From Methanofollis formosanus (GTDB lineage Archaea > Halobacteriota > Methanomicrobia > Methanomicrobiales > Methanofollaceae), in NCBI RefSeq assembly GCF_019633745.1, contig NZ_CP037968.1, positions 1,370,789 to 1,434,788 on the forward strand: 64,000 nucleotides of DNA, given 5' to 3'. Of the stretch, positions 41,276 through 62,880 are shown piece after piece. Both the position numbers and the translations under genes were made by a program. The notes under the pieces are model-generated. The model had not been told where the DNA came from. It saw only the letters and a program-made list of their open reading frames with translations, and did not search any database. How positions within the stretch are numbered: position 1 is the first letter of the stretch; every line of letters begins with the position of its first letter.

Positions 41276-41524
41276 CTGGTTTCAGGCTACGGCGAAGATT
41301 TCGTCACTTACCGTATGACAAAACAGCGGACGAGGACCACAGCGCCTCGTCGTCCCTGCAGTTATCTTCGTCCGTGAGGGGAACGAGCGTGAGCGAGTTC
41401 AAGAAAGTCGTAGGCTTTCGCTGACGACCGAAAGGAGTCGAGAAAATTTGGTTTTGAGGTCATCCCAAAACGTCTCTGGCCTTGATAGGTGAGGAGAAGA
41501 AGTTGCTGAAGCACGGGCCCTGTA

Positions 41525-41848
41525 GAATCAGGCATGAGGCGAGCGCCCCGCCTCAAGCATACGCAATGAAAATATCAGATCAGATCTGGATCGGTTCTTG
41601 ACCCTTATCCCTGCGTTCGAGGAGCGAATCGGAGTCAAGCATCGTGCCGCCCCCCGGATATCTTCGTCGTGGGGGGCCCGGGGGGTGCAACCCCCCGGCG
41701 CGATACAGCAGGGAAATCTCGACGATTGAGGCCGGCATATCCATCAGAGGGATTTTCTATCCTCTGCGTATCGGCTTCAAACGGATATGACGAGTTCAAA
41801 CGCTCATGCAAACCTGAAGAGAGGATCGTCTGGATCATTTTCATGGTA
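41525..41848 (+). repeat. Long mosaic repeat R1, copy 2 (left-arm type L1)
   Basis: It has the same order of segments as the copy at 1424-1738: GCGAGCGCCCCGCCTCAAGC, AGATCAGATCTGGATC, the GC palindrome with CCGGGGGGTGCAACCCCCCGG, GTATCGGCTTCAAACG and the end GGATCATTTTCATGGTAAAC. Identity by eye is around 90 percent. Confidence 0.8.
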
Positions 41849-41885
41849 AACCCTCACCTTTTCTGGGTGCGAGCGCGATTCAACC

Positions 41886-41954
41886 GCCTTCCTCCATCTT
41901 CTCGCCAGGGGCTCGGCCCCCGGACCCCCGGGATGAAGATAGAGCCGGGAAGGC
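41886..41954. repeat. Short palindromic repeat R3, copy 4
   Basis: Outer ends GCCTTCCTCC and CCGGGAAGGC surround GGGGCTCGGCCCCCGGACCC. Confidence 0.5.
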
Positions 41955-42090
41955 ACCATCAATGACCATGAAGAGCGCACTGCCGTCCCCTGTCCCATCC
42001 TGACACGGGGGGTTCGAGGGTCTCCCCCCGGCAGGAGAGAGCAAGGAACCATTCTTTATGCTTTCTGTGGGCGGCACCTCTGATCGGTCC

Positions 42091-42152
42091 GCCTTCCTTC
42101 GTCACTCTCGCCGGGGGCGTTGCCTCTGGATAGCAATTGAAGCAGGGAAGGC
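42091..42152. repeat. Short palindromic repeat R3, copy 5 (diverged)
   Basis: It starts GCCTTCCTTCGTCACT, contains CGCCGGGGGCGTTGCC and ends GGGAAGGC. Confidence 0.45.
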
Positions 42153-42239
42153 AGATGAACGGCCGAAAAGAGTCTTGATCCTGCTCTTTAGAAACCATCC
42201 TCTTTTCATCACTTCAACCCCCTGCGAACCAAATCCATC

Positions 42240-42307
42240 GCCTTCCCTCATGCTTGTGCCGGGGGCGCTGCCCCCGGACCCCGGGGATGAAGATTGGGTC
42301 GGAAGGC
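42240..42307. repeat. Short palindromic repeat R3, copy 6
   Basis: It starts GCCTTCCCTCATGCTTG, contains CCGGGGGCGCTGCCCCCGG and ends GGAAGGC. It is the most symmetric copy in the window. Confidence 0.55.
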
Positions 42308-42666
42308 GGAGAGATGACCATGAAGAGGGGGTTGCAATCCGCCACCTATCTTCGCGCGGGGGGTTTGGGGGGCGGCCAGCCCCCCGAAGAAATAGCCATC
42401 CAGAGCATTTCTACAAAGCCCTTGATCCAGATGATGGATCGAACTCTGGATACTTTTGGGATATGCTCTTTGTAAAATCAGGTATGAGACGAGAGGGACC
42501 CTCAAGCATACGCTATGAAAATTTTTCGTCGCTTGATCTCTCTTTTCAAGACAAAAGGATTGGTTGAGACCTTGTTCCATCGCCGCCCCGCCCCATCCCC
42601 TCGCGAGACGGCAGGAACGATCGTGGGATAGGGGGCGGCACACCTGATCGGTCTGCCGCCCCCTAA

Positions 42667-43407
42667 TCACGCCCTCTTCTTCTCCCCCTCCAGATACGCC
42701 AGACTCGGCCGCACGGCTCCGGGGTCGAGCACCTCGACGACGGCCGTCGCCGATCGGGGGACCGCCGCCATGACGGCCGAAAAGTCGATGGACCCGCTGC
42801 CGCAGGCGGCATGGAGGTCGCTCTGTCCGTCGTTGTCATGGAGATGAAGATGGACGGGCCGCGCCTCTGCAAGGAAGGTGTCCAGGGTTCCGGTGAGCGC
42901 GGCGTGCCCGACGTCGAGGGTGAACCCGAGGCCCAGGTCGTCGAGGACCGGGAGGAGCGCGGGGTCCCTGAAGTGGCAGCAGGTCCATGAGCCCATGTTC
43001 TCGACCGCCAGGACAACCGAGACCTCGTCCTGGAGGGTGGCGAGGTCGTGGAGGGAACGGGAAAGGGCCTCTTCGGAGGCCTGCCAGAGGGAGGGTTCCA
43101 TGCAGAAGCCCGGGTGGATGACGAGGCGGCGGGCCCCGACCTCGTCGCAGATCCGGGCAAGACCGGCGATCGCTTCGACCGAGGCATGTCGCATCGTCTC
43201 GTTCTCTGTAGCGAGGTTGATGTCGGTGGTCGGGGCATGGACGGTGTAGGCGAGGTCGAAGGACTCGCAGACCTCCCGGTGAACGAAGAGCGAGTGAAGG
43301 GAGTCGGAGAGGATCTCCACGAGATCGGTTTCCGCGGCAAGGAGCGCGAGGGCCTCGTCGAGGGGGCGGTCCATGAGACAGTACGTGGAACACCCGGGAA
43401 GACTCAT
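42667..43407 (-). CDS. TIM-barrel sugar phosphate isomerase/epimerase-like protein
   Basis: This 246-residue protein of the xylose isomerase-like TIM barrel superfamily starts MSLPGCSTYCLMDRPLDEAL. The ATG at 43407 overlaps the btuD stop by 4 bases (ATGA), which sets the start. Metal-binding type motifs are RRLVIHPGFCM, VVLAVENMGSWTCCH, LGFTLDVGHAALTG and VHLHLHDNDGQSDLH. The substrate is unknown. Tight coupling to a cobamide transporter suggests a role in corrinoid processing or an unrelated sugar-phosphate task; I infer nothing firmer. Length is a little short for the family (250-290). Confidence 0.82.
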   Translation of the reverse strand: MSLPGCSTYCLMDRPLDEALALLAAETDLVEILSDSLHSLFVHREVCESFDLAYTVHAPTTDINLATENETMRHASVEAIAGLARICDEVGARRLVIHPGFCMEPSLWQASEEALSRSLHDLATLQDEVSVVLAVENMGSWTCCHFRDPALLPVLDDLGLGFTLDVGHAALTGTLDTFLAEARPVHLHLHDNDGQSDLHAACGSGSIDFSAVMAAVPRSATAVVEVLDPGAVRPSLAYLEGEKKRA

Positions 43408-44684
43408 CGCTCCGTCCCGCTCCTCAGGGAGGCGAGGTGCGCGACGAGCGCGGGGATGTCCCTGACGGCGACGGCGCCGTTCCGGCACAAGGACGAGAAG
43501 AGCGCGGTCGCCTCGCCGCCGGTGTAGTCGCGGCTCGAGAGTGGTGCGCCGTCCCGCGCGAGCACAAAGACCTTGAGGGCTGGAAACTGTTCCAGCGCCC
43601 TGAGGTTTGCGATGTTGCCCGCACCGATCGGCATCTCGGTGATGACCACGGCGTCGGTTTCCTTCAGGAGAGCGGTGTATTCGGCGAGCGAACCCTCCGA
43701 AATCGGGGCAAAAGGAGACTCTTTGACGACCGGGATCCCGAGCCCTTCGGCGGTGGTGCAGTCCGAGTCGTTGGCCGAGAGGACGCCGGCGGTGACCTGG
43801 TAGCCCTGCGAAGAGAGCGCATACATCGTCTCGGCCCCGGTCCCCCCACCGCAGACGACATGGACGCACACCGGCGTACCGCCGGAGAGCGTCGGCGACG
43901 CCGCCGGTTCGTAGCGCGGGACCAGGTACGGCCTGCCGGTGAGCGGGTGCGTCCTGACCATCATCGGGACGCCGAAGACCTGCCTGATGTTGGCGTCGGT
44001 GAGCACCTCTTCCGGCGTGCCGACGGCGACGATCTTCGCCTTCTCCATGAGGATCACCCGGTCGCAGAAGTAGGCGGCAAGGTTGAGGTCGTGGAAGACC
44101 GCGACCACCGTCACCGCCGGGGTGAGGCCGCGGATGATCGAGAGCACCTCGATCTGGTGGTTGATGTCGAGGTGCGAGGTCGGTTCGTCGAGGAGCATGG
44201 CTTTCGGCTGCTGGGCGAGGGCGCGGGCGATGAGCACCCGCTGCCGTTCGCCCCCGCTGATCTCGGTGATGAGCCGGTCGGCCAGGTGCGTGGTGCTGGT
44301 CAGGTCCATCGCCTCCCGGCAGACGGCATAGTCCGCTTCTTTCATCGAGGAGAGTCTGCCGAGGTACGGGTGGCGACCCATCTGCACGATCTCTTCGACG
44401 GTGAACCCGAAGGAGACCGCGGTCTCCTGAGGCACGGCGCCGAGTCTGGTGGCCAGTTCACGGGGCGAGTACTCCCCGACATCTCTGCCGTCGACGTAGA
44501 CCGCGCCGGCCGCCGGGTCGATGACTCTTGATATAGCACGGATGAGGGTGGTCTTCCCGCACCCGTTCGGCCCCAGGATCCCGATGAACGTCCCTTCGTT
44601 CACGGCGAGGGAGACCGCGTCCAGAACCCGGACGTCGCCATACCTGACGTCAAGATCCTCTGCCCTGATCATCTCTGCTGTCAT
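43404..44684 (-). CDS. btuD: Cobamide (BtuD-type) ABC transporter ATPase with C-terminal extra domain
   Basis: This 426-residue protein is started at the ATG at 44684, which overlaps the btuC stop (ATGA); an alternative ATG is at 44672. The ATPase part (1-255) has Walker A GPNGCGKTTL, the ABC signature ISGGERQRVLIARAL and Walker B KAMLLDEPTSHLD, all of the FecE/BtuD class. Residues about 265-426 form an added Rossmann-like domain, starting VCVHVVCGGGTGAETMYALS and including VVITEMPIGAGNIANLRALE. This extra domain occurs in archaeal BtuD-like proteins, is absent from E. coli BtuD, and may bind a nucleotide or corrinoid. It drives import through BtuC. Confidence 0.88.
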   Translation of the reverse strand: MTAEMIRAEDLDVRYGDVRVLDAVSLAVNEGTFIGILGPNGCGKTTLIRAISRVIDPAAGAVYVDGRDVGEYSPRELATRLGAVPQETAVSFGFTVEEIVQMGRHPYLGRLSSMKEADYAVCREAMDLTSTTHLADRLITEISGGERQRVLIARALAQQPKAMLLDEPTSHLDINHQIEVLSIIRGLTPAVTVVAVFHDLNLAAYFCDRVILMEKAKIVAVGTPEEVLTDANIRQVFGVPMMVRTHPLTGRPYLVPRYEPAASPTLSGGTPVCVHVVCGGGTGAETMYALSSQGYQVTAGVLSANDSDCTTAEGLGIPVVKESPFAPISEGSLAEYTALLKETDAVVITEMPIGAGNIANLRALEQFPALKVFVLARDGAPLSSRDYTGGEATALFSSLCRNGAVAVRDIPALVAHLASLRSGTER

Positions 44685-45640
44685 GTCCGTGTCCTGCTCC
44701 GTAAGAGGTAGATGAAGAACGGCGCGCCAAAGAACGCCGTGACGATCCCGACCGGGATCTCGTTGGGCATGGTGCGGGCAAGGGTGTCGGCCCACATCAG
44801 GATCGCCGCACCGGCCATCATGGCTGCGGGGAGGAGAACCCTGTGGTCGGGACCGACGATGATACGCATCACATGCGGCGTGATGAGCCCGATGAACCCG
44901 ATGGCCCCGGCGACCGAGACGGCGATCCCGGTAATGAATGATGAGAGAAGAAGGAGTGCGAGTTTGAGGCGTTCGACGTCCACCCCAAGGTGCAGGGCGT
45001 CCTCCTCGCCGAGTGAGATGACGTTGAGGTCTCTGGCAAAGAAGAAGAGTACGAAACACCCGATGAGGATGAGGAGCGCCACATGGACGTCGTCCCACCA
45101 GACGTTCCAGAGGCCGCCCATCAGCCAGAACATGATCTGGTGGAGGCTCTTGCCCGAGATGTACATCACGAAGGAGAGGAGCGAGGAGAGAAAGAGTGAG
45201 ACCGCGATCCCCGAAAGAAGAAGGGTCTCGACGGCCACCTTTCCGTCACGCCGTGAGATGAGGTAGACGACGACGGTCGAGGCGGTGGCGCCGACAAAGG
45301 CGAAGATCGGCAGGCCCCAGCCCATAAGAAATACAATCGAAAGTGCCGCGCCGAGGGCGCCGCCGGACGACGTGCCGATGATGTACGGGTCTGCCATCGA
45401 GTTCTTGAAGAGGCCCTGCATCGCAGTCCCGGCGGCCGCCAGTCCCGCGCCGACGAGGAGCGCGGCGAGCACCCTGGGGAGACGGACGTCAAAGAGGATC
45501 TGCATGATCCCGGCAGGGCTGAGGTCAAGGAGGGAGAGGCCGCTGGTCCCGATTGCGGTGGTGAGGATGACGCTTGCACCCAGGAGGAGAAGGAGGGCGA
45601 CCAGCACGATCCAGGTCTTCTTTTGCATGATAGTCTTCAT
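44681..45640 (-). CDS. btuC: Cobamide (BtuC/FecCD-type) ABC transporter permease
   Basis: This 319-residue membrane protein of the FecCD family has about ten hydrophobic segments. Family marks are DVRLPRVLAALLVGAGLAAA near residue 50, SSGGALGAALSI, ISLGEEDALHLGVDVERLKL, and the end IPVGIVTAFFGAPFFIYLLR. It forms the channel for B12-type cofactors or iron chelates. The B12 assignment comes from the BtuF-like and DUF4430 proteins of the divergent operon. No clear ribosome site precedes the ATG at 45640, so an internal ATG at 45628 is possible. Confidence 0.88.
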   Translation of the reverse strand: MKTIMQKKTWIVLVALLLLLGASVILTTAIGTSGLSLLDLSPAGIMQILFDVRLPRVLAALLVGAGLAAAGTAMQGLFKNSMADPYIIGTSSGGALGAALSIVFLMGWGLPIFAFVGATASTVVVYLISRRDGKVAVETLLLSGIAVSLFLSSLLSFVMYISGKSLHQIMFWLMGGLWNVWWDDVHVALLILIGCFVLFFFARDLNVISLGEEDALHLGVDVERLKLALLLLSSFITGIAVSVAGAIGFIGLITPHVMRIIVGPDHRVLLPAAMMAGAAILMWADTLARTMPNEIPVGIVTAFFGAPFFIYLLRSRTRT

Positions 45641-45760
45641 CCAATTGTTTTACCTTAACAACAATATAGTTACCTGAAGTCCCCGGCCGCCATATCGCCA
45701 CATTAATGTACTTATAGTCACAGAATTTTATCAATAAAAAAATAGTTAATGTAAATTTAT
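45641..45760. promoter_or_regulatory. Divergent control region of the corrinoid locus
   Basis: This is 120 AT-rich bases between btuC and the propeller-DUF4430 gene. TTAATGTA occurs twice (45703-45710, 45746-45753), and TTACCTTAA/TTACCTGAA occur at 45650 and 45670, 20 bases apart (two helical turns). These are candidate binding sites for a regulator. GAATTTTATCAATA (45723-45736) is a possible TATA element for the plus strand. No B12-riboswitch-like fold is evident. Confidence 0.45.
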
Positions 45761-47683
45761 ATGAGTGTGACGACCATGCGATCCCTATTCATTGCAACCC
45801 TGACCGGCATCCTCGCGATGCTGCTTATCATTGCGCCGGCTGCGGCCGATTTTCCGTTCTTCGGCGCGGACGAGGCTCGGACCGGGACCACATCTGCCGG
45901 CGGCCCCGTGACCAATACCACCCTCTGGGTGGTGGAGACTGCCGAATACGCCGACGGTTCACCAGTGGTCTATGACGGCAAGGTCCTTGTCCCGACCTGG
46001 CCGGATATGAACTTCACCGACAACGAACCGATGGGACTGGTCTGCTATGACGCCGCCACCGGCGAAGAACTCTGGACCAACGAACTCGGCGGCGCGGCCG
46101 TCGGGGCGGTCTCGGGAGTGGCCGTCGCCGACGGGAAGGCCTACCTCGGCGGGACCGATGGGAAACTCTACTGTGTCGACGAAGAGAGTGGTGCCACCTC
46201 CTGGTCGAGCGAGAAGATCGACGAGACCGGATACTTCGGCCTTTCCTCGTCCCCGCTCGTATACAACGGGAACGTGTACGCCCTCTCGGCCTCTGATGCC
46301 ACGCTCCATGCGTTCGGCCCGGACGGCAACGAGGCCTGGTCGTTTCCGATCGGCGGCGGGGCGGCATACTTCGTCTCACCCGCAGCGGCCGACGGAAAGG
46401 TCTACTGCTCGAACATGACCGCGCTCTTCTGTATCGACCCCGTGACGCAGGATGAGGTATGGAACACCAGCGTCACTGATGTCATCCTTTCGACACCGGC
46501 CGTGAGCGGGAACGCCATTTTCTGCGCCGGGGCCATCAACACCTATGCCTTTGATCGCGAGACCGGCGACGAACGCTGGAACGTCTCCCTCGCCGGCACC
46601 TCGTCTTCCCCTGCGGTCGACGGCGCAAACCTCTATGTCGGCGCAAAGGACGGCCTCCACTGCCTGGACGCCGCCACCGGTGCAGAGCGCTGGGCTTTCT
46701 CCTCAGCTCAGATCACGGTCTCCCCGGTGGTCGCAGACGGGACGGTCTACTTCGCGACAAATGAAGAGGCTGGATCGGTGTATGCGGTGGACACCGTCAC
46801 CGGCGACGAGGTCTGGTCATACACCCTTGAGGCACCCGAAGACGGCACCTTTGCCGCCTTCTATGCCTCGTCACCCGCCGTCTCCGACGGCGTCCTGTAC
46901 ATCGGGGCCGAGAACAACCTTCTCTACGCCTTCGGCGAGGGGGCGCCCTGGCCAGAGAGTATCTTCGACGGCACCGTCGGTCTCACCGATACCACCTTCA
47001 CCTTCGTGCCGTCGAACAACGCTTCGGCCACCTATGAGATCACACGCACCACCGACCTCGGCGCCCTCGACGCCGCCGCCGACCTCGGCGGGTTCACCTT
47101 CGATGCAAGCGACGCGTGGTACGCCTCGTACGGTTCCTTCACCCTCGAATCGATCGACGGCATCGCCAACGAGGACTGGACCAAACCGGGCGCACGCTCC
47201 TGGTCCATCTTCATCAACAACCAATCGGCCCCCAGAGGCCTCGGCGGAAACACCCTCGACGACGGCGACCTCCTCGAGTTCTTCTACTGCCCGGTCAACG
47301 AGACCACCTATGCCCCGCTCATCGACGAGGCCGACGCCGTCGTCAGGATCCGCGTGAGCATGTCGGACGCCACACTCTCGGCACTCACCCTTACCGACGG
47401 CAGCCGCGGCGGGAATCTCCGTGCCGATGTCACGGCTTCCGCCATGAACGAAGGGTGGTATGTCATCGTGGTGAGCGGGACAGATGGGAATGGTGAGTCT
47501 CTTGCAGGGGCCGGCACCGTCCACCTCGCCGCCGGCGAGAGTGTCGAGGTCCCGGTCCTTGTCACTGTGCCCCTTCAGGCAAAAACCGACACCTACACGC
47601 TCCACGCAGGCATCTACCAGATCGACGACTACCCCACACACTGTCTGTTCACGAGCGAGGGAGTGGAATGCACCATAACATGA
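45761..47683 (+). CDS. Exported PQQ-type beta-propeller with DUF4430 (transcobalamin-like) domain
   Basis: This 640-residue protein has a signal peptide (MRSLFIATLTGILAMLLIIA, then PAAADF). Residues about 30-400 hold repeats of the PQQ/BamB propeller type, such as GLVCYDAATGEELWTNELGG and VYAVDTVTGDEVWSYTLEAP. Residues about 405-520 resemble the DUF4430 fold of the transcobalamin/intrinsic factor beta-domain: TTDLGALDAAADLGGFTF, WSIFINNQSAPRGLGGNTLD and DGDLLEFFYCP. A final beta-rich domain follows without a membrane anchor. The start may be the ATG at 45776, which has GTGTGACG before it. The context (BtuF, BtuCD) suggests a surface corrinoid or corrinoid-complex binder; that function is inferred. 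Confidence 0.87.
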   Translation: MSVTTMRSLFIATLTGILAMLLIIAPAAADFPFFGADEARTGTTSAGGPVTNTTLWVVETAEYADGSPVVYDGKVLVPTWPDMNFTDNEPMGLVCYDAATGEELWTNELGGAAVGAVSGVAVADGKAYLGGTDGKLYCVDEESGATSWSSEKIDETGYFGLSSSPLVYNGNVYALSASDATLHAFGPDGNEAWSFPIGGGAAYFVSPAAADGKVYCSNMTALFCIDPVTQDEVWNTSVTDVILSTPAVSGNAIFCAGAINTYAFDRETGDERWNVSLAGTSSSPAVDGANLYVGAKDGLHCLDAATGAERWAFSSAQITVSPVVADGTVYFATNEEAGSVYAVDTVTGDEVWSYTLEAPEDGTFAAFYASSPAVSDGVLYIGAENNLLYAFGEGAPWPESIFDGTVGLTDTTFTFVPSNNASATYEITRTTDLGALDAAADLGGFTFDASDAWYASYGSFTLESIDGIANEDWTKPGARSWSIFINNQSAPRGLGGNTLDDGDLLEFFYCPVNETTYAPLIDEADAVVRIRVSMSDATLSALTLTDGSRGGNLRADVTASAMNEGWYVIVVSGTDGNGESLAGAGTVHLAAGESVEVPVLVTVPLQAKTDTYTLHAGIYQIDDYPTHCLFTSEGVECTIT

Positions 47684-49248
47684 AGTGGGCCCTCCCCCTT
47701 CTCCTCCTCATCGCGCTTGCCGCGCCGGCGGCGGCACTCACCATGGACGTCGCCGCGTCGTCGTCGCCGGGTTCGGCCGTCACGGTCACCCTTGATAAAG
47801 AGGCGGACGTGACCTTCCAGATGAACGGCGGGACGCCCTACTACGCCCACGGGACGAGTGCGAAGTTTGTTCCGCACATCACCGGGACGCTCACGGTCAC
47901 CGCGATGGCAGAGGGACAGTCCGTTGAGAAGACGGTCAGGATCACCTCCGGGAGCGGCGGAGGCGGAGGCAGCGACTTCAACGACGATGACTCCGGCCCC
48001 TGGAAGGAAGTCACCCTCGGCCCCGGCACCTTCAACGTGACCGCGGAGAGCGGCGAGACCTATGGGGTGAACCGGCGCACCGCCCTCGGTGCCCTCGACG
48101 CCTCAGGCGCCACCTATGTCCTCGACGACGGGTGGTACGACCAGTACGGCACGCTGTTCCTCAAGTCCGTCAACGGCCGCGAAGGTGAGGGGATGGCCGG
48201 ATGGGTCTACCAGGTCAACGGCAAGTCGCCGTCGGTCGGTGCCAACACCTACAAAGTGAAGGAAGACGACAAAGTCGTCTTCTACTACAGCGAGAGCATG
48301 TCGGCACAGCCCGAGGACTCGCCCGAGGCGATCTATCTCAAGGTCGCCTTCGGCAGCATCACCTCAAACGGAGATGACGAAGAAGGATCTGGAACGGCAC
48401 AGGGACGCCTGGTACCGGCCGATGGCCCTGAGATCCCACTCGGTCTCCCGGAGGGCGTGACAATGACCTTCGGTGCGAGCGGATCGCGGATCTCGGTCCA
48501 CCAGGACGCCGGGGGCGACGGCGACGAGGTGATCGTCAGGGGCGACCGGGTCATCATCATGCGCCCGGGCCTCCTGCTGACCGTCCTGACCAGCGATATG
48601 AACAAGGAGGACAATTCCTCAACCGGTCAGGTCAGAAGTGTCACCGCCGAACTGATGCCCGCTGCGGCCGGGGTCAGGGGGAACATGATCCTCGTGCTTG
48701 CCGGGATACCGGGAGAAGGAGCCATCACGACCGGTTTCAGTGACCGGCCATCTCCAGAGATCACAGAGTCCCTCACGACCTTCGCCACCGCCGAAGACCG
48801 GTCTCTCCTGGGCGTCGCCTCGGTGATGGACGTGAAGAGGACCAACCTGAAGAACGGCGAGGATATCCTCGGCGCCACCGTCAGGATGGAGATCGACCCG
48901 GCCTGGGTGGACGAGCACGGGGGCGCCGACGCGATCCGGATCGTTCACATCGCCGACGACGGGACGATCGAGGTCCTTGAGACCAGAAAGATTCTGGAGA
49001 CCGGAGACTCCGTCAACTTCGAGGCGGAGTCAAAGAACGGCCTCTCGTCATTTGTCATCGTCGCCCTCGGAGAGAGAGAAGGACCCGCGACATCTGCGAC
49101 GACAGCACCGGCGACAGGGAGTGAGACTGGCACCACACCGGCACCGACCACCCCGCAGCAGACGCCTCTCTGGGCCTGGGCCACCATTCCGGCGCTCTTT
49201 ATTGGGGGCGCCGCATATCTCATGAACAGAAAGGAGGAATCGAACTGA
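47668..49248 (+). CDS. Exported DUF4430 protein with C-terminal membrane tail
   Basis: This 526-residue protein has a signal peptide (WALPLLLLIALAAPAAALTM), a beta domain (25-90) and a Gly/Asp linker. A DUF4430 domain spans about 120-210, including RRTALGALDASGATYVLDDG, AGWVYQVNGKSPSVGANTYK and DDKVVFYYSE, close to the consensus of the transcobalamin-like fold. Residues about 295-475 match a domain of the giant surface protein at 12442 (SVMDVKRTNLKNGEDILGAT against MNIVKTNLTNGKEITNAS). A Thr/Pro linker and membrane helix (LWAWATIPALFIGGAAYLMN) end it. GAGGGAGTGG precedes the ATG, which overlaps the previous gene by 16 bases. It is a likely corrinoid-capture partner of the BtuF fusion next door. 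Confidence 0.87.
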   Translation: MHHNMKWALPLLLLIALAAPAAALTMDVAASSSPGSAVTVTLDKEADVTFQMNGGTPYYAHGTSAKFVPHITGTLTVTAMAEGQSVEKTVRITSGSGGGGGSDFNDDDSGPWKEVTLGPGTFNVTAESGETYGVNRRTALGALDASGATYVLDDGWYDQYGTLFLKSVNGREGEGMAGWVYQVNGKSPSVGANTYKVKEDDKVVFYYSESMSAQPEDSPEAIYLKVAFGSITSNGDDEEGSGTAQGRLVPADGPEIPLGLPEGVTMTFGASGSRISVHQDAGGDGDEVIVRGDRVIIMRPGLLLTVLTSDMNKEDNSSTGQVRSVTAELMPAAAGVRGNMILVLAGIPGEGAITTGFSDRPSPEITESLTTFATAEDRSLLGVASVMDVKRTNLKNGEDILGATVRMEIDPAWVDEHGGADAIRIVHIADDGTIEVLETRKILETGDSVNFEAESKNGLSSFVIVALGEREGPATSATTAPATGSETGTTPAPTTPQQTPLWAWATIPALFIGGAAYLMNRKEESN

Positions 49249-51230
49249 AGAAACTCTACGCACTCGTCATCCTCATCTGCACCGCCTGCGTCATGGGCGG
49301 TGCGGCCTACCCGCTTGACGCCGAGGACGACACCATACAGCACGGTCTTGACTATCTCAAGACCTGCCAGCAACCCGACGGCGGGTTTGCCGAACCCGAA
49401 CGGGAGAGCAACCCGGGCACCTCATGGTTTGCGATGATGGCGATCGTCGCCGCGGGCCAGGACCCCCGGACCTGGACCGTGAAAGGCACCTCAGCGGTTG
49501 ACTACTGGGAACACCCCGGCGAGGGCGTTCAGGCTGAAGGAACCGCCGAACTCGGCCGGATGGTCACCCTCATCGCCGCCGTCGGCGGTGACCCACACAA
49601 TTTCGGCGGGAAAGACCATCTTGCCGACCTCAAGGCCCGAATGAAACCGTCGGGCCAGTTCGGCGACTTTGTCTACACCTCGTACTGGGGGATCTTCGGA
49701 CTCGCCGCCACAGGCGAGGACACCACCAGGCCCCTCGCCTGGCTGAAGGAACAGCAGAACGAAGACGGCGGGTTCGGCTGGATGCCGGGCGCGGAGAGCG
49801 ACTGCGACGACACTTCCGCATCAATTATGGCGATGACCGCTGCAGGGGAACCGAAAGACTCTCCAGCGGTGAAGAAGGCACTGGCTTATCTGAAAAACGC
49901 CCAGATGGACGACGGCGGGTTCAACTACGGCGGGTCCTCGTCTTCGAACGTGGCATCGGCCGCATGGGTGACGCAGGCGATCGCCGCTGCGGGCCAGGAC
50001 CCCTCGACCTGGACGAAGAACGAGAGAGATGTCGTCTCGTACCTCACCGACCTCCAGCAGCCCGACGGGCCCTTCAAGTGGACTGCCCAGGTCACCGACA
50101 ACCCCTGCCGGATGACGGCCGCCGCAGTCCCGGCACTCCTCGGCCGGCCGTACCCCATCCTGCCCGGCCAGACCTCCCCTGCCCTCCCAGCGCAGACTGC
50201 CGCGGCGGAGACGACCCCTGATGCCGCCGCAACCACTCCAGTCGCCGCCGCCACGACAGACGCACCGGCAGCCGGCGGCCCCTGGGAACCGGTCACGGTC
50301 ACCGACGATTTTGGTGAACAAGTCACCATCACGAAAGAACCCCTGCGGATCGTCTCCCTTGCGCCGGCCAACACCGAGATCCTCTTTGCCCTCGGCCTGG
50401 GCGATCGGGTGGTCGGGGTGACCGATTACTGCAATTATCCTGAAGAGGCCACGACGAAGCCGAAGGTCGGCGGGTTCTCCACGGTGAACATCGAACGGGT
50501 GGTGGCGGCAAAGCCCGACCTGGTCTTTGCGGCCCTGGGCAACACCGAAGAGGTGGTCACCCACCTCAGGAAACTCGGCCTGACCGTCGTCACCCTCAAC
50601 CCCGACTCGGTCCAGGGGACGCTCCAGGACATCAGACTCGTCGGTGACGCAACCGGGACAGAGGCGGAAGCCGACGCGCTCGTCACCTCGATGCAGACGC
50701 GGATCGATGCCGTCACCGGGAAGGTAAAGGGCACATCCGAACGTCCGACCGTGATCCATGCCGTCTGGTACGACCCCATATGGGTGAGCGGCAACGGCAC
50801 CTTCCAGGACGAGTTGATCGAGATCGCCGGTGGAAAGAACGCTTTCCCCGACCTCGAAGGCTGGCAGATCGTCACCCTCGAGAAGTTCCTCACCACCGAC
50901 CCGGACGTGATCCTGGTCAACTCGGGTACCGGGATGGACGGTGCGGAGAACGACCTCATCTACCGGTACTTCAGCGAAGAACCGCGGTTCCAGAACCTCA
51001 AGGCAGTGAAAGAGGGTCGGGTCTACGTTGTGCCCTCAGACATCATCGACCGGGGCGGCCCCAGGATCGTGGACGCCATCGAGATGGTGGCGGCCGACAT
51101 CCATCCCGAACTCTTCGGAGCAGAAGAGGAGACCCCGGCACCGTCCGGCGCACAGAGCCCTGGGTTCGGCGCCTTTGCAACATTAGCCGGGGTGCTGGGG
51201 GCGTGCCTCCTCCTGAGGAGGATTGGATGA
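49245..51230 (+). CDS. Alpha/alpha-barrel repeat domain fused to BtuF-type corrinoid-binding protein, CTG start
   Basis: This 661-residue protein appears to start at a CTG codon (49245). AGGAGGAAT lies 5 bases upstream, and a perfect signal peptide follows in frame (KKLYALVILICTACVMGGAA); the first in-frame ATG (49293) falls inside that signal. Residues about 25-305 are squalene-cyclase/prenyltransferase-type helical repeats (LDYLKTCQQPDGGFAEPERE, LAWLKEQQNEDGGFGWMPGA, LAYLKNAQMDDGGFNYGGSS), the fold of the intrinsic factor alpha-domain. After an Ala/Thr/Pro linker, residues 347-625 are a BtuF/FecB-type binding protein (IVSLAPANTEILFALGLGDR, GVTDYCNYP). The end PGFGAFATLAGVLGACLLLRR is a PGF-CTERM-like sorting tail. 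It probably binds corrinoid for BtuCD. Confidence 0.88.
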   Translation: MKKLYALVILICTACVMGGAAYPLDAEDDTIQHGLDYLKTCQQPDGGFAEPERESNPGTSWFAMMAIVAAGQDPRTWTVKGTSAVDYWEHPGEGVQAEGTAELGRMVTLIAAVGGDPHNFGGKDHLADLKARMKPSGQFGDFVYTSYWGIFGLAATGEDTTRPLAWLKEQQNEDGGFGWMPGAESDCDDTSASIMAMTAAGEPKDSPAVKKALAYLKNAQMDDGGFNYGGSSSSNVASAAWVTQAIAAAGQDPSTWTKNERDVVSYLTDLQQPDGPFKWTAQVTDNPCRMTAAAVPALLGRPYPILPGQTSPALPAQTAAAETTPDAAATTPVAAATTDAPAAGGPWEPVTVTDDFGEQVTITKEPLRIVSLAPANTEILFALGLGDRVVGVTDYCNYPEEATTKPKVGGFSTVNIERVVAAKPDLVFAALGNTEEVVTHLRKLGLTVVTLNPDSVQGTLQDIRLVGDATGTEAEADALVTSMQTRIDAVTGKVKGTSERPTVIHAVWYDPIWVSGNGTFQDELIEIAGGKNAFPDLEGWQIVTLEKFLTTDPDVILVNSGTGMDGAENDLIYRYFSEEPRFQNLKAVKEGRVYVVPSDIIDRGGPRIVDAIEMVAADIHPELFGAEEETPAPSGAQSPGFGAFATLAGVLGACLLLRRIG

Positions 51231-52300
51231 GAGTTCCCACACTCTTTTTTTCCCTGCTCCTGCTTTCTGCGCTCCCGAGCCTCTCGGTTGCGGCCGCACC
51301 GGTGGAGGCACCGCTCTGGGAGGTGACGGTCCCCGGCGAGGTGAAGGATCTCGCGCTCAACGCCGACGGCACCGGGGTGGCCGTCCTCTCTGAGAGAACA
51401 CTCTCATGGTACAACAGAGACGGCACACCAGGATGGGAGATCCCCGCAAACAATGCAGAGACCATCGGAGTCTCTGAAGACGGGTCGCTCCTTGTCTCAG
51501 GCGGCGCCGACCTCAGGGCCTACGACCGCGACGGCGGTCGGGCCTTCAGGTTCGACACCGGGTTCTTCGCTTTCGGGACCGGCGTGTCCCCGGAAGGTTC
51601 CTGCATCGCTGCCGGTTTCGACAACAAAAGTCTGACCGTCTTCAGGACCGACATCACCGACGACTTCGAACCGGCCTGGACGGTCGAGACCACAGAGGAC
51701 GTCATCAGTGTGGCGCTCGCCGAGAACGGAACCGATCTCACGGCCTGCACCAAGGACGGGATGGTCCACTCCTACACCGGCGACGGGAGACTGCTCTGGA
51801 GTTATGACACCGGAAGCGAAGGACTGAACTGTGCCGTCACCCGCGACGGATCGTACGTCGTCGCCGGGGCCGACCACGGCGTCGTCCTTCTCCTGAACCG
51901 GAACGGCGTCCTCGTCAGAGAAGAGGTCGTCGGCGAGCGTCTCCCGTCGGTCTCGATCTCGGCCGATGGGTCGGTCGTCGCCGTCGGCGGGGACGACGGG
52001 GTCGTGCTCCGCTCTCTGCAGGGCGAAGACCTCGGTACGCTCGGGACCGGGAAGGTGCATGCGGTCGCGCTCTCGGCCGACGGGAACCGGGTCGCCGCCG
52101 CCGGACCGGGGGGACACCTCGCCCTCTTCTCGATAGGCGCAGATGAGGTCGTGCCGGGAACTACGGCCGCGACCTCGACCACTGCCGCAGCGTCCGGCAG
52201 CACCGGGAAAGAACCCGTCCCGGCCCCCACGCAGCAGGCGGCCCTCTCCGCCCTGCCCGCCCTTGCGGCCGTCGCCTTCCTCCTGTGGGGGAGACGGTAA
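51227..52300 (+). CDS. Exported WD40/PQQ-like beta-propeller with membrane tail
   Basis: This 357-residue protein starts MRVPTLFFSLLLLSALPSLS. The ATG at 51227 overlaps the upstream stop by 4 bases (ATGA), and the 149 earlier residues of the frame are shadow sequence. The mature part has about seven blades with recurring VALSADGNRVAAAGPGG, VSISADGSVVAVGGDDG and VAVLSERTLSWYNRDG elements. A Thr/Ala/Ser-rich linker (about 300-335) leads to a C-terminal hydrophobic helix (ALSALPALAAVAFLLWGRR). It is the last gene of the four-gene surface operon. The role is unknown; it may scaffold or gate the capture proteins. Confidence 0.84.
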   Translation: MRVPTLFFSLLLLSALPSLSVAAAPVEAPLWEVTVPGEVKDLALNADGTGVAVLSERTLSWYNRDGTPGWEIPANNAETIGVSEDGSLLVSGGADLRAYDRDGGRAFRFDTGFFAFGTGVSPEGSCIAAGFDNKSLTVFRTDITDDFEPAWTVETTEDVISVALAENGTDLTACTKDGMVHSYTGDGRLLWSYDTGSEGLNCAVTRDGSYVVAGADHGVVLLLNRNGVLVREEVVGERLPSVSISADGSVVAVGGDDGVVLRSLQGEDLGTLGTGKVHAVALSADGNRVAAAGPGGHLALFSIGADEVVPGTTAATSTTAAASGSTGKEPVPAPTQQAALSALPALAAVAFLLWGRR

Positions 52301-52311: not shown

Positions 52312-52465
52312 CATTCGGCTTTTTAGAATTCGCATGAACCCCGGGATCACCCCTTCGTTGCCGCCCCTGCCTATCTTCCGTCCGTGGGGGGTCCGGGGGG
52401 CAAAGCCCCCCGGCGCGAGATGACGGTGAAGGTTCTGCCATGAGGGCGGCCGATCAGATCGACGT

Positions 52466-52535
52466 GCCTTCCCACACGCTTCGCCGGGGGCGATTGCCGC
52501 CCGGACCCCCGGGATGGCGATAGAGTCGGGAAGGC
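52466..52535. repeat. Short palindromic repeat R3, copy 7
   Basis: It starts GCCTTCCCACACGCTTCGCC, contains GGGGGCGATTGCCGCCCGG and ends TCGGGAAGGC. Confidence 0.6.
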
Positions 52536-52631
52536 TGAAAAAACGATCCTGATAGGCGGGATGCCGTCATCCCCCTATCTTCGTGCGGGGGGTTCGGGGG
52601 ACGGTCAACCCCCCGTCAAAGAGAACCATCA

Positions 52632-52945
52632 AGATGATTTACCATGAAAATGATCCTGACGATCCTCCCTTCAGGTTTGCATGAGAGTTTGAACTCGCCA
52701 TATCCCTTTGAAGCCGATACGCAGAGGATAGAAAATTCCTCTAATGGATCGGCCGCCCCGAATCGTCAAATCTTTCCCGCAATCTCGCGCCGGGGGAAAC
52801 CCCCGGACCCCCACGACGAAGATAGGTGGGGGCGGCGATGGAACACGAATCCCCCCAGATTCTCCGGTCTTGAAAAGAGAGAGCAAGCGACGAGAAATTT
52901 TCATGCCGTATGCTTGAGCCAGGGGTTCATGCCTGATTCTACAGA
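52632..52945 (-). repeat. Long mosaic repeat R1, copy 3 (inverted, left-arm type L2)
   Basis: Read on the minus strand it begins CATGAACCCC(T)GGCTCAAGC, goes through CATACGGCATGAAAATTTCT and TCGCTTGCTCTCTCTTTTCA, then the GC core and the arm CGTATCGGCTTCAAAGGGAT, ending GGATCATTTTCATGGTAAAT. Confidence 0.75.
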
Positions 52946-53191
52946 GCCAAAAAATGCTTCTTTGCTCTCTCATGCCGGGGGAGACCCCCCGGACCCCCCC
53001 ACGACGAAGATAGGGGTGGGGCGGCAGCACGCTCTTGAACGACACTGTACTTCAGAACGTTCTTCCCCTCACCTCTCAGGGCCAGGGGAGTTTTGGGATG
53101 ACCCCATGGTAATTCTCAGAGCCCGGGGATCGATCCTTCCACGGTCCAGAGGGCTGCGAGATCAAATTTTCATCCAGTACCAGTCCATATT

Positions 53192-56900: not shown

Positions 56901-57074
56901 CGTATCGATCCCATGCCGTCCCATACACTCGCACCGGGGGGCGGGATGAAACCATATCTTCTCAATATCCTGTCGCGAGGATCGGGATCCGCCCACACGC
57001 TGAAGCGCTGCTCAGAAAATGTTCAATCGCGTATGCTTGAGCCGTGGGTTCATGCTCGATTACCATGAAAATGA

Positions 57075-57405
57075 TCTCGAAGATCAGCTCTGTAGAATCG
57101 GGCATGAACCCCAGGTTCAAGCATACGGGATGAAAATTTTTCGTCGCTTGATCGCTCTTTTTCAAGAGAAGAGAATCGATGGGGATCGTGTTCCATAGCC
57201 GCCCCCACCTATCTTCGTCGTGGGGGGGTTCCGGGGGGTGCAACCCCCCGGCGCGAGGTTGCATGGAAATCTCGACGATTGGGGGCGGCCGATCCATCAG
57301 AAGAATTTTTTTATCCCCTGCATATCGGCTTCAACAGGATACGGCGAGTTCAAACTCTCATACAAACCTGAAGAGACGATCGTCGGGATCATTTTCATAG
57401 TAATT
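57075..57405 (+). repeat. Long mosaic repeat R1, copy 4 (left-arm type L2)
   Basis: GCATGAACCCCAGGTTCAAG starts it; CGTCGCTTGATCGCTCTTTT marks the L2 arm. The GC core with CCGGGGGGTGCAACCCCCCGG and the arm to GGATCATTTTCATAGTAATT follow. Confidence 0.78.
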
Positions 57406-57715
57406 TTTCATGATGGGAAAGCGCACCTCAAGCATACGCGATGAAAATTTCTCGTTGCGTGATCGCTCATTTTCAAGAGAGGAGAATCGGTGTGGATCCT
57501 ATTCCATCGCCGCCCCCACCTATCTTCGTCGTGGGGGGGTTCCGGGGGGTGAAACCCCCCGGCGCGAGACAGCAGGGAAATCTCGACGATTGGGGCGGCC
57601 GATCCATCTGAAGAATTTTCGATCCTCTGCGTATCGGCTTCAATGTGATATGAAGAGTTCAAACTCTCGTGCAAACCTGAAGAGAGGATCGTCTGGATTA
57701 TTTTCATGGTAATTT
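57406..57715 (+). repeat. Long mosaic repeat R1, copy 5 (left-arm type L2)
   Basis: It begins with CACCTCAAGCATACGCGATG and CGTTGCGTGATCGCTCATTT (L2 arm). The GC core has CCGGGGGGTGAAACCCCCCGG, and it ends GGATTATTTTCATGGTAATT. Confidence 0.78.
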
Positions 57716-58027
57716 TGCATGAACCCCCAGGCTCAAGCATACGCGATGAACATATCAGATCAGATCTGGATTGATTCTTGACCTTCATCCTTGCGTTCGA
57801 GGAGTGAATCGAAGTCAAGCACCATGCCGCCCCTCGGCTATCTTCGTCGTGGGGGGTCCGGGGGGTGCAATCCCCCCGTGCGAGATGGCAGGGAAATCTC
57901 GACGATGGGGGCGGCCGATCCATCAGAGGAATTTTCTATCCTCTGCGTATCGGCTTCAACGTGATATGGCGAGTTCAGACTCTCATGCAAACATGAAGAG
58001 AGGATATTCTGGATCATTTTCATGGTA
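57716..58027 (+). repeat. Long mosaic repeat R1, copy 6 (left-arm type L1)
   Basis: It begins GCATGAACCCCCAGGCTCAA, has the L1 arm with AGATCAGATCTGGATTG and ends GGATCATTTTCATGGTAATT. The core differs slightly (GCAATCCCCCCGTGCGAG). Confidence 0.78.
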
Positions 58028-58260
58028 ATTGCATGAGGCGAGCGCCCCACCTCAAGCGTACGCGATGAACATATCAGATCAGATCTGGATCGGTTCTTGA
58101 CCCTCATCCGTGCGTTCGAGGAGCGAATCGAAGTCGAGCATCGTGCCGCCCCACGACGAAGATAGGTTGGGGCGGCGATGGAACAAGGTCTCCACCGGTT
58201 TTCTCGTCTTGATAAGGGAGAAAGCAAGCGAAGAAAAATTTTCATCCAGTATGCTTGAGG
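58028..58260 (+). repeat. Long repeat R1, copy 7 (rearranged: L1 arm joined to inverted L2 arm)
   Basis: The L1 arm (AGATCAGATCTGGATCGG ... GAGCATCGTGCCGCCCC) leads directly into CACGACGAAGATAGGTTGGG, the complementary orientation of the core, and then into an inverted L2 arm ending CAGTATGCTTGAGGC. The right arm is missing. This looks like recombination between inverted copies. Confidence 0.7.
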
Positions 58261-58382
58261 CGTGCTTTTGCCTCATGCCGAATTCTCCAGAACCGCAATG
58301 CCGGCGTGTGGGGTGCCCGGCGCGGGGGGTCCGCACCGGAAAAAAGTCCTGAGTGGTGTCCTGCCAGTCAACGCCGATCAGT

Positions 58383-62011: not shown

Positions 62012-62324
62012 CAACCCCCCGGGAGGCGCGTGAGGTTATAGCATTTTGGGCAGTGGGAAAATCCTTGATGACGCTCGTCACAGCAGGACTGCAGGTGGAT
62101 GCACACCCCAACTGCCGCCCCCGGAACCCCCACGACGAAGATAGGGCCGGGAAGGCAGAGGCCCGATCATTCAGGAGATGCATCTGCAATCTGTGTATCA
62201 GTCCTGAAGGTGTTTGGTGGATTCAAACCATTATGCAAACACAGAGAGATAATCATCAGGATCATTTTCATGGTATACCATCCTCTTTTCATCACCTCAG
62301 CCCCCCTGTGACCTTTCATCCATC

Positions 62325-62392
62325 GCCTTCCCTCATGCTCACGACAGGGGGAGAGTCCCCAGCCCCCCAGGATGAAGATTGGGGCGGAAGGC
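62325..62392. repeat. Short palindromic repeat R3, copy 8
   Basis: It starts GCCTTCCCTCATGCTCACG, contains GGGGAGAGTCCCCAGCCCCC and ends GGAAGGC. Confidence 0.5.
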
Positions 62393-62474
62393 GGAGAAAT
62401 GACCATGAAAGAGGGGTTGCAGTCTCCCGCCTATCTTCGTGCGGGGGGTTCGGGGGGCGGCAAGCCCCCCGTCG

Positions 62475-62790
62475 AAGAGAACCATCAAGATGATTTACCA
62501 TGAAAATGATCCAGACGATCCTCTCTTCAGGTTTTCATGAGAGTTTGAACTCGTCATATCACGTTGAAGCCGATACGCAGAGGATAGAAAATTCTTCTAA
62601 TGGATAGGCCGCCCCCATCGACGAGATTTCCCTGCCATCTCGCGCCGGGGGGAAACCCCCCGGACCCCCCACGACGAAGATAGGGACGGGGCGGCGATGG
62701 AGCGAGGTATCAACCTGTTCTCCTGTCTTGAAAAGAGAGAGAAAGCAAACGACGAGAAATTTTCATCATGTATGCTTGAGACCCCCTCTC
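62475..62790 (-). repeat. Long mosaic repeat R1, copy 8 (inverted, left-arm type L2)
   Basis: Read on the minus strand it shows CTCAAGCATACATGATGAAA, TCGTTTGCTTTCTCTCTTTT, the GC core, GTATCGGCTTCAACGTGATA and the end GGATCATTTTCATGGTAAAT. It is the closest relative of copy 3 at 52632. Confidence 0.78.
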
Positions 62791-62880
62791 GCCCCATGCA
62801 GAATTATACACAGCCGAAATCTTTGCTTTCTCTCTCATACGTTCTATCTTCTCCACCCGGAGAGTCCATCAGGGAAGAAG

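Follow-up and report, generated by a model that had tools for sequence, protein, structure and literature searches.

A candidate cell-surface corrinoid capture and import system in Methanofollis formosanus, with a barrel-BtuF fusion and DUF4430 proteins as partners

It was left open in 2007 whether the relatives that the intrinsic-factor beta domain has in archaea serve corrinoids or something else, and a locus of the methanogen Methanofollis formosanus raises this question again. The locus lies in a stretch of 64,000 nucleotides (contig NZ_CP037968.1, positions 1,370,789 to 1,434,788; here called the window) of a genome of 2.97 Mb in one contig, and it consists of two divergent operons: one encodes a BtuC-type permease, a BtuD-type ATPase and a CbiR-like protein, and the other encodes four exported proteins, among them an alpha/alpha barrel fused to a BtuF domain and two proteins with DUF4430 domains. 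We consider it very likely that the locus serves corrinoid uptake at the surface, with barrel and DUF4430 acting as partners, and we think it probable that it is a cell-surface capture and import system whose DUF4430/barrel capture unit hands corrinoids over to BtuF. We read the ligand as a corrinoid because of the co-occurrence of barrel and DUF4430, their swapped fusions, the riboswitches of clostridial relatives, the CbiR/BtuCD context and the fold match of DUF4430, and the 2007 question is thereby tilted in favor of corrinoids.

A first-pass annotation, made from the sequence alone, had placed btuC and btuD divergently from four genes for exported proteins, with a barrel fused to BtuF, DUF4430 domains in two proteins and propellers in two, and all of these parts are present (Table 1). 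In the fusion, Pfam Prenyltrans/SQHop repeats (PF00432/PF13243 toroids) that make up a single toroid of ~275 residues are followed by Peripla_BP_2 at E=3e-43. The DUF4430 domain of the second exported protein (P0003) is clear, and that of the first (P0002), which falls under the Pfam cut-off, was recovered at E=1e-10 by our profile A2, built from P0003-type DUF4430 domains only; P0003 also matches PGF_pre_PGF at 22 bits, under the cut-off of 28. By visual inspection, each of the four proteins has a segment at its N-terminus that resembles a signal sequence. The annotation had seen btuC and btuD and had overlooked the third gene of their operon, which encodes the CbiR-like protein. Neighboring genes overlap by 4-16 nt in both operons, with ATGA overlaps between the cbiR-like gene and btuD and between the fusion gene and the second propeller gene, so that both look like single operons with coupled translation. 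The fusion appears to start at a CTG codon with the ribosome-binding site AAAGGAGG; among relatives, locus L054 shares the CTG, L055 carries an ATG in its place, and for L058 and L059 the plausible fusion start is a CTG with an adjoining ribosome-binding site.

Full-length barrel-BtuF fusions were found in four families among 61 genomes of the order. A DUF4430 gene adjoins the fusion in all 20 fusion loci that were fetched; 18 of these loci have btuC and btuD within reach, 16 a second propeller gene and 12 a cbiR-like gene. None of the 15 plain-btuF loci has a barrel or DUF4430, although 14 of them have btuC and btuD. Within the genus, genome G011 (locus L053) has such a plain btuF, divergent from btuC-btuD-cbiR, which means that one transporter can occur with or without the capture module. 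Among 232 genomes of the class (thresholds: barrel >300 bits; canonical DUF4430 at E<=1e-25), the barrel is present in 50 and canonical DUF4430 in 45; 44 have both, 6 the barrel only, 1 DUF4430 only and 181 neither (Fisher p ~1e-39, shared ancestry being ignored). Presence is mixed within several genera, which implies more than one joint gain or loss. Four of the barrel-only genomes (G076, G077, G079 and G081) carry a divergent barrel set, with an adjoining DUF4430 at 49 bits in one and sub-significant traces in two; the remaining two are incomplete assemblies (80-81%). Taken together, these results support barrel and DUF4430 as near-obligate partners, and the arrangement is more than chance: ~50 genomes of the class have it, and it recurs in Archaeoglobi.

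Scanning one genome per species across 84,980 species with the barrel profile recovered relatives in Archaeoglobi (~45-50% identity) and in Clostridia (32-39%). In a tree of the barrels the Archaeoglobi form one clade (support 100/99), and the methanogens group together with moderate support (89/61), apart from the clostridial sequences. At 17 Archaeoglobi loci DUF4430 and barrel are on one polypeptide, DUF4430 first, and BtuF is separate, encoded by the next gene downstream in nearly all 17, with a propeller gene upstream. That the barrel is joined to BtuF in methanogens and to DUF4430 in Archaeoglobi is strong evidence that barrel, DUF4430 and BtuF cooperate, and the survey of such neighborhoods in archaea, which the first-pass annotation had proposed, in this way bore out the pairing.

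In Clostridia the barrel gene comes after that of a double ATPase, and two DUF4430 genes lie upstream. The order in Candidatus Formimonas warabiya (L119) is CbiZ, SLH-anchored DUF4430, DUF4430, CbiQ/EcfT, double ATPase, SLH-anchored barrel and an annotated S component of an energy-coupling factor (ECF) transporter. An Rfam cobalamin riboswitch precedes the operon in the same orientation, at a distance of ~0.1 to 2.3 kb, in 11 of 11 scanned clostridial loci with upstream DNA (L118, L119, L120, L121, L122, L127, L129, L130, L131, L135 and L136; the L119 aptamer is cut by the locus end); six more scanned loci (L123-L126, L133 and L134) begin inside the operon. These riboswitches tie the pair of barrel and DUF4430 to corrinoids in bacteria, and they support, for Clostridia, the B12 scavenging that had been predicted for bacterial proteins with a toroid and an SLBB domain encoded beside CbiO/CbiQ genes (PMC1796856). 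From this homology and from the BtuFCD/CbiR context we infer that the ligand of the archaeal system would be a corrinoid as well.

The importer genes point the same way. In NCBIfam, corrinoid models outscore heme and F420-0 models for both proteins: BtuC reaches 340 bits with the BtuC model PRK09535 versus 239 with the F420-0 permease, and BtuD 364 bits with the corrinoid ATP-binding cassette (ABC) ATPase PRK09536 versus 268 for heme and 258 for F420-0. The TIM-barrel gene of their operon (Pfam PF01261, 79 bits) is like CbiR, a cobamide-remodelling phosphodiesterase (PMC7733943), in that the CbiR model NF041277 is its best match, and unlike it in scoring 69.2 bits, under the cut-off of 105; its enzymatic role is a predicted one. 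A 2020 survey of CbiR listed one archaeal taxon (PMC7733943).

The window's DUF4430 domain gave a confident AlphaFold2 model, with a predicted local distance difference test (pLDDT) score of 90 and a predicted template-modelling score (pTM) of 0.84. When this model was searched against the PDB with Foldseek, 3u7z, a Ruminococcus gnavus protein, took ranks 1 and 5, and ranks 2-4 and 6-19 (17 of the first 19) were all transcobalamin, haptocorrin or intrinsic factor, at probabilities of 0.72-1.00, with the next match at 0.03. The domain is thus predicted to adopt the SLBB/transcobalamin-type beta-domain fold, as the first-pass annotation had supposed.

How might such a system work? The DUF4430 domain or domains and the barrel, which would be the two folds of animal transcobalamin and intrinsic factor, may form a dedicated external capture unit. 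A membrane-anchored DUF4430 protein would first meet the corrinoid, and the barrel would then close over its other face; the covalent link between barrel and BtuF would let the ligand pass straight to BtuF and then to BtuCD. Import would proceed through BtuF-BtuC-BtuD, and foreign cobamides would be opened inside the cell, probably by the CbiR-like enzyme. The propellers may serve as surface scaffolds or as additional capture sites. We give an even chance, perhaps slightly better, to the idea that barrel and DUF4430 jointly hold one corrinoid in the fashion of intrinsic factor. The fuller picture is of a split intrinsic factor, with the halves of the clamp on different surface proteins, one of them part of the importer's receptor, and with closing and loading as one step; for this the scales hang level.

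Several results, given here and in the next paragraph, tell against this interpretation. The Foldseek matches of the DUF4430 model had E-values of only about 0.01 (range 0.0075-0.6) and TM scores of ~0.5. In searches against PDB sequence profiles, window-type DUF4430 domains found no convincing match, and only a divergent DUF4430 of locus L148 touched transcobalamin, weakly (E=0.015). For the barrel, PF01122 was absent from the Pfam matches at E<=0.1, and PDB sequence profiles returned cyclases and prenyltransferases and no intrinsic factor; the barrel, which the annotation had described as intrinsic-factor-like, by itself resembles terpene-cyclase toroids more than it does intrinsic factor. 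We also modeled a natural DUF4430-barrel fusion from Archaeoglobi (L112) with AlphaFold (pLDDT 91). Its domains were confident and its pTM was 0.67, a value that fits an uncertain placement of the domains relative to each other. Foldseek matches of this model were dominated by the barrel, the nearest solved structures being terpene cyclase and prenyltransferase toroids, with intrinsic factor outside the top 50; the DUF4430-first order of L112 allows no sequential alignment to intrinsic factor. Animal B12 proteins close around their ligand, and the L112 model, folded without one, may be taken as neither for nor against a sandwich. The uncertain placement would also suit a relay in which the corrinoid is bound separately by DUF4430, by the barrel and by BtuF, and is never shared between barrel and DUF4430. 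So would the varying DUF4430-barrel linkers of Archaeoglobi (about 40 to 248 residues) and the isolated transcobalamin beta domain solved with cyanocobalamin (PDB 5np4), which is in the Foldseek list of the window's DUF4430. However, a loose relay would not require barrel and DUF4430 to be paired almost strictly, or to be fused as they are in Archaeoglobi, and we regard it as rather unlikely. Of the intrinsic-factor-like capture that the annotation had envisaged, corrinoid uptake and the pairing of barrel with DUF4430 are supported, and the sandwich is a possibility.

It might also be that the system carries another ligand (heme, an iron or nickel chelate, F420 or an unknown cofactor) and that its likeness to btu genes reflects the shared FecCD/Peripla_BP_2 family. 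All three importer components fall short of the NCBIfam equivalog cut-offs (BtuF 115 of 234 bits, BtuC 340 of 461, BtuD 364 of 537), and in a search of the BtuF domain against the PDB by sequence the top match was named an iron-binding protein (4m7o), followed by nine vitamin B12-binding proteins. In the window, an Rfam search found no family at the gathering threshold and no riboswitch. CbiD is present in the same genome, which makes corrinoid synthesis likely; with CbiZ, also present, the organism probably salvages corrinoids and makes them too. Because archaea often make B12, a distinct metabolite had been suggested for the archaeal SLBB proteins (PMC1796856). Against this stand the CbiR-like gene in the operon, the best scores of BtuC and BtuD with corrinoid models and the cobalamin riboswitches ahead of the bacterial cousins of barrel and DUF4430, and we consider a ligand other than a corrinoid improbable.

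Residues T100, S185, D186, D188, D189, T190, N235, Q244 and T291 (fusion numbering) are conserved at >=80% in methanogen, Archaeoglobi and clostridial barrels, and several conserved polar residues are close to helix starts in the L112 model; the conservation of D186, D188, D189, T190, N235, Q244 and T291 counts in favor of the capture reading. The barrel has an invariant D161-x-D163-D164-T165 that lines up with DVDDT in squalene-hopene cyclase, and the solved structures nearest to it are those of cyclases. It was therefore considered as an enzyme like the class II terpene cyclases, with a catalytic DxDDT, but this is hardly credible for a single exported toroid that is fused to BtuF or DUF4430 and whose bacterial counterparts sit behind cobalamin riboswitches and keep the same DxDDT, which may serve ligand binding.

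Table 1. Features of the locus and its flanks, in window coordinates
Feature	Position	Strand	Basis
mtrH, end	41256		
CbiR-like TIM barrel (AP endonuclease 2 superfamily)	42667..43407	-	NCBIfam NF041277, Pfam PF01261
BtuD ATPase with extra C-terminal domain	43404..44684	-	NCBIfam PRK09536 best match
Extra C-terminal domain of BtuD (~165 aa)	43404-43904	-	
BtuC permease	44681..45640	-	FecCD 303 bits; NCBIfam PRK09535
Divergent intergenic region between both operons, 120 bp	45641..45760	.	Gene coordinates
P0002, exported PQQ-type beta-propeller with C-terminal divergent DUF4430	45761..47683	+	
Propeller of P0002	~45878-46960	+	PF13360 (PQQ_2) 134 bits
DUF4430 of P0002	46973-47290	+	20.5 bits, under Pfam cut-off; profile A2
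P0003, exported DUF4430 protein with PGF-pre-PGF-like region and C-terminal hydrophobic anchor	47668..49248	+	
Canonical DUF4430 of P0003	47983-48342	+	55.6 bits (PF14478, cut-off 23.8)
Barrel-BtuF fusion: signal peptide, barrel, linker, BtuF domain, PGF-CTERM-like anchor	49245..51230	+	Pfam, NCBIfam, PDB
Alpha/alpha barrel of the fusion	49320-50144	+	
BtuF domain of the fusion	50349-51041	+	
Exported second beta-propeller with C-terminal hydrophobic anchor	51227..52300	+	WD40/PQQ-like models
Interspersed repeat	41521-42597, 52359-53106, 57016-58299, 1411-1968, 62222-62820		Intergenic

The first-pass annotation had also noted the mtr genes as neighbors. They are adjacent, and this is weak evidence: mtr also stands next to loci with a plain btuF and no capture module, so that adjacency is independent of the module, and it was not seen in most other genera. 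Intergenic repeats in units of ~200-300 bp lie on both flanks of the locus; for a unit of 301 bp there are 103 matches across the genome, and ~44 of these are strong (81-91% identity). The extra C-terminal domain of BtuD, which has no Pfam match, accompanies btuD in nearly all relatives examined. Propeller-DUF4430 proteins of relatives (L065, L066, L062, L060 and L057) have three or four tandem DUF4430 domains, of which one is canonical and the others are divergent in L062, L065 and L066. A Methanofollis relative has an additional stand-alone canonical DUF4430 gene (L055:4474-4827, a 172-aa open frame) 5' of its propeller gene, and weak DUF4430-like matches occur in other large open frames outside the window (G000:C1:714512-715252 and 1715471-1715794). 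In a few loci two adjacent genes are in the same frame, and a read-through chain is possible.

The corrinoid reading of this locus suggests a way in which a dedicated surface trap for B12 could have arisen in a cell that lacks an outer membrane, and one capture module would then serve two unrelated importers, BtuFCD in archaea and ECF in Clostridia. If binding is confirmed, the human B12 uptake proteins would have prokaryotic counterparts that bear on their origin, and the sharing of corrinoids could be approached in methane-producing communities, where Mtr needs a corrinoid for methyl transfer.

That toroid and SLBB proteins act as B12 scavengers in prokaryotes was already predicted in 2007 by Burroughs, Balaji, Iyer and Aravind, who defined the SLBB superfamily (PMC1796856). 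What is new here is the fusion of the barrel to BtuF, the setting beside BtuCD and a CbiR-like gene, the swap of fusion partners and the evidence favoring corrinoids in archaea. In the open-access literature, subscription papers being mostly outside the search, we found no description of the BtuF fusion or of the BtuCD/CbiR arrangement after that work, and a study of corrinoid starvation in Dehalobacter (PMC4285132) mentions neither toroid, transcobalamin nor ECF. The 2007 operons resemble the present locus in having exported toroid and SLBB proteins, often with paralogous SLBB proteins and propellers, beside a transporter; they differ in that their transporters are of the CbiO/CbiQ (ECF) type, in contrast to FecCD/BtuFCD with a CbiR-like gene in archaea, and in that the archaeal barrel is covalently joined to BtuF.

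Compared with the BtuFCD importer, the substrate-binding protein, permease and ATPase belong to the same families, whereas the window's BtuF has an N-terminal barrel and a PGF-CTERM-like anchor and its BtuD an extra C-terminal domain. Bacteroides BtuG (PMC10404256) offers a possible analogy as a cell-surface beta-propeller beside a B12 importer, although BtuG partners an outer-membrane TonB receptor and the window propellers are PQQ_2/WD40-like. Unlike intrinsic factor, transcobalamin and haptocorrin (2pmv, 2bb5 and 4kki), which in animals are one chain with the barrel first, the window splits the two parts over two proteins with the barrel on BtuF, and the Archaeoglobi fusion places DUF4430 first; the window's barrel, with no PF01122 match, is closer to terpene-cyclase toroids. 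What the locus shares with that family is the combination of an alpha/alpha barrel with an SLBB/DUF4430 beta domain.

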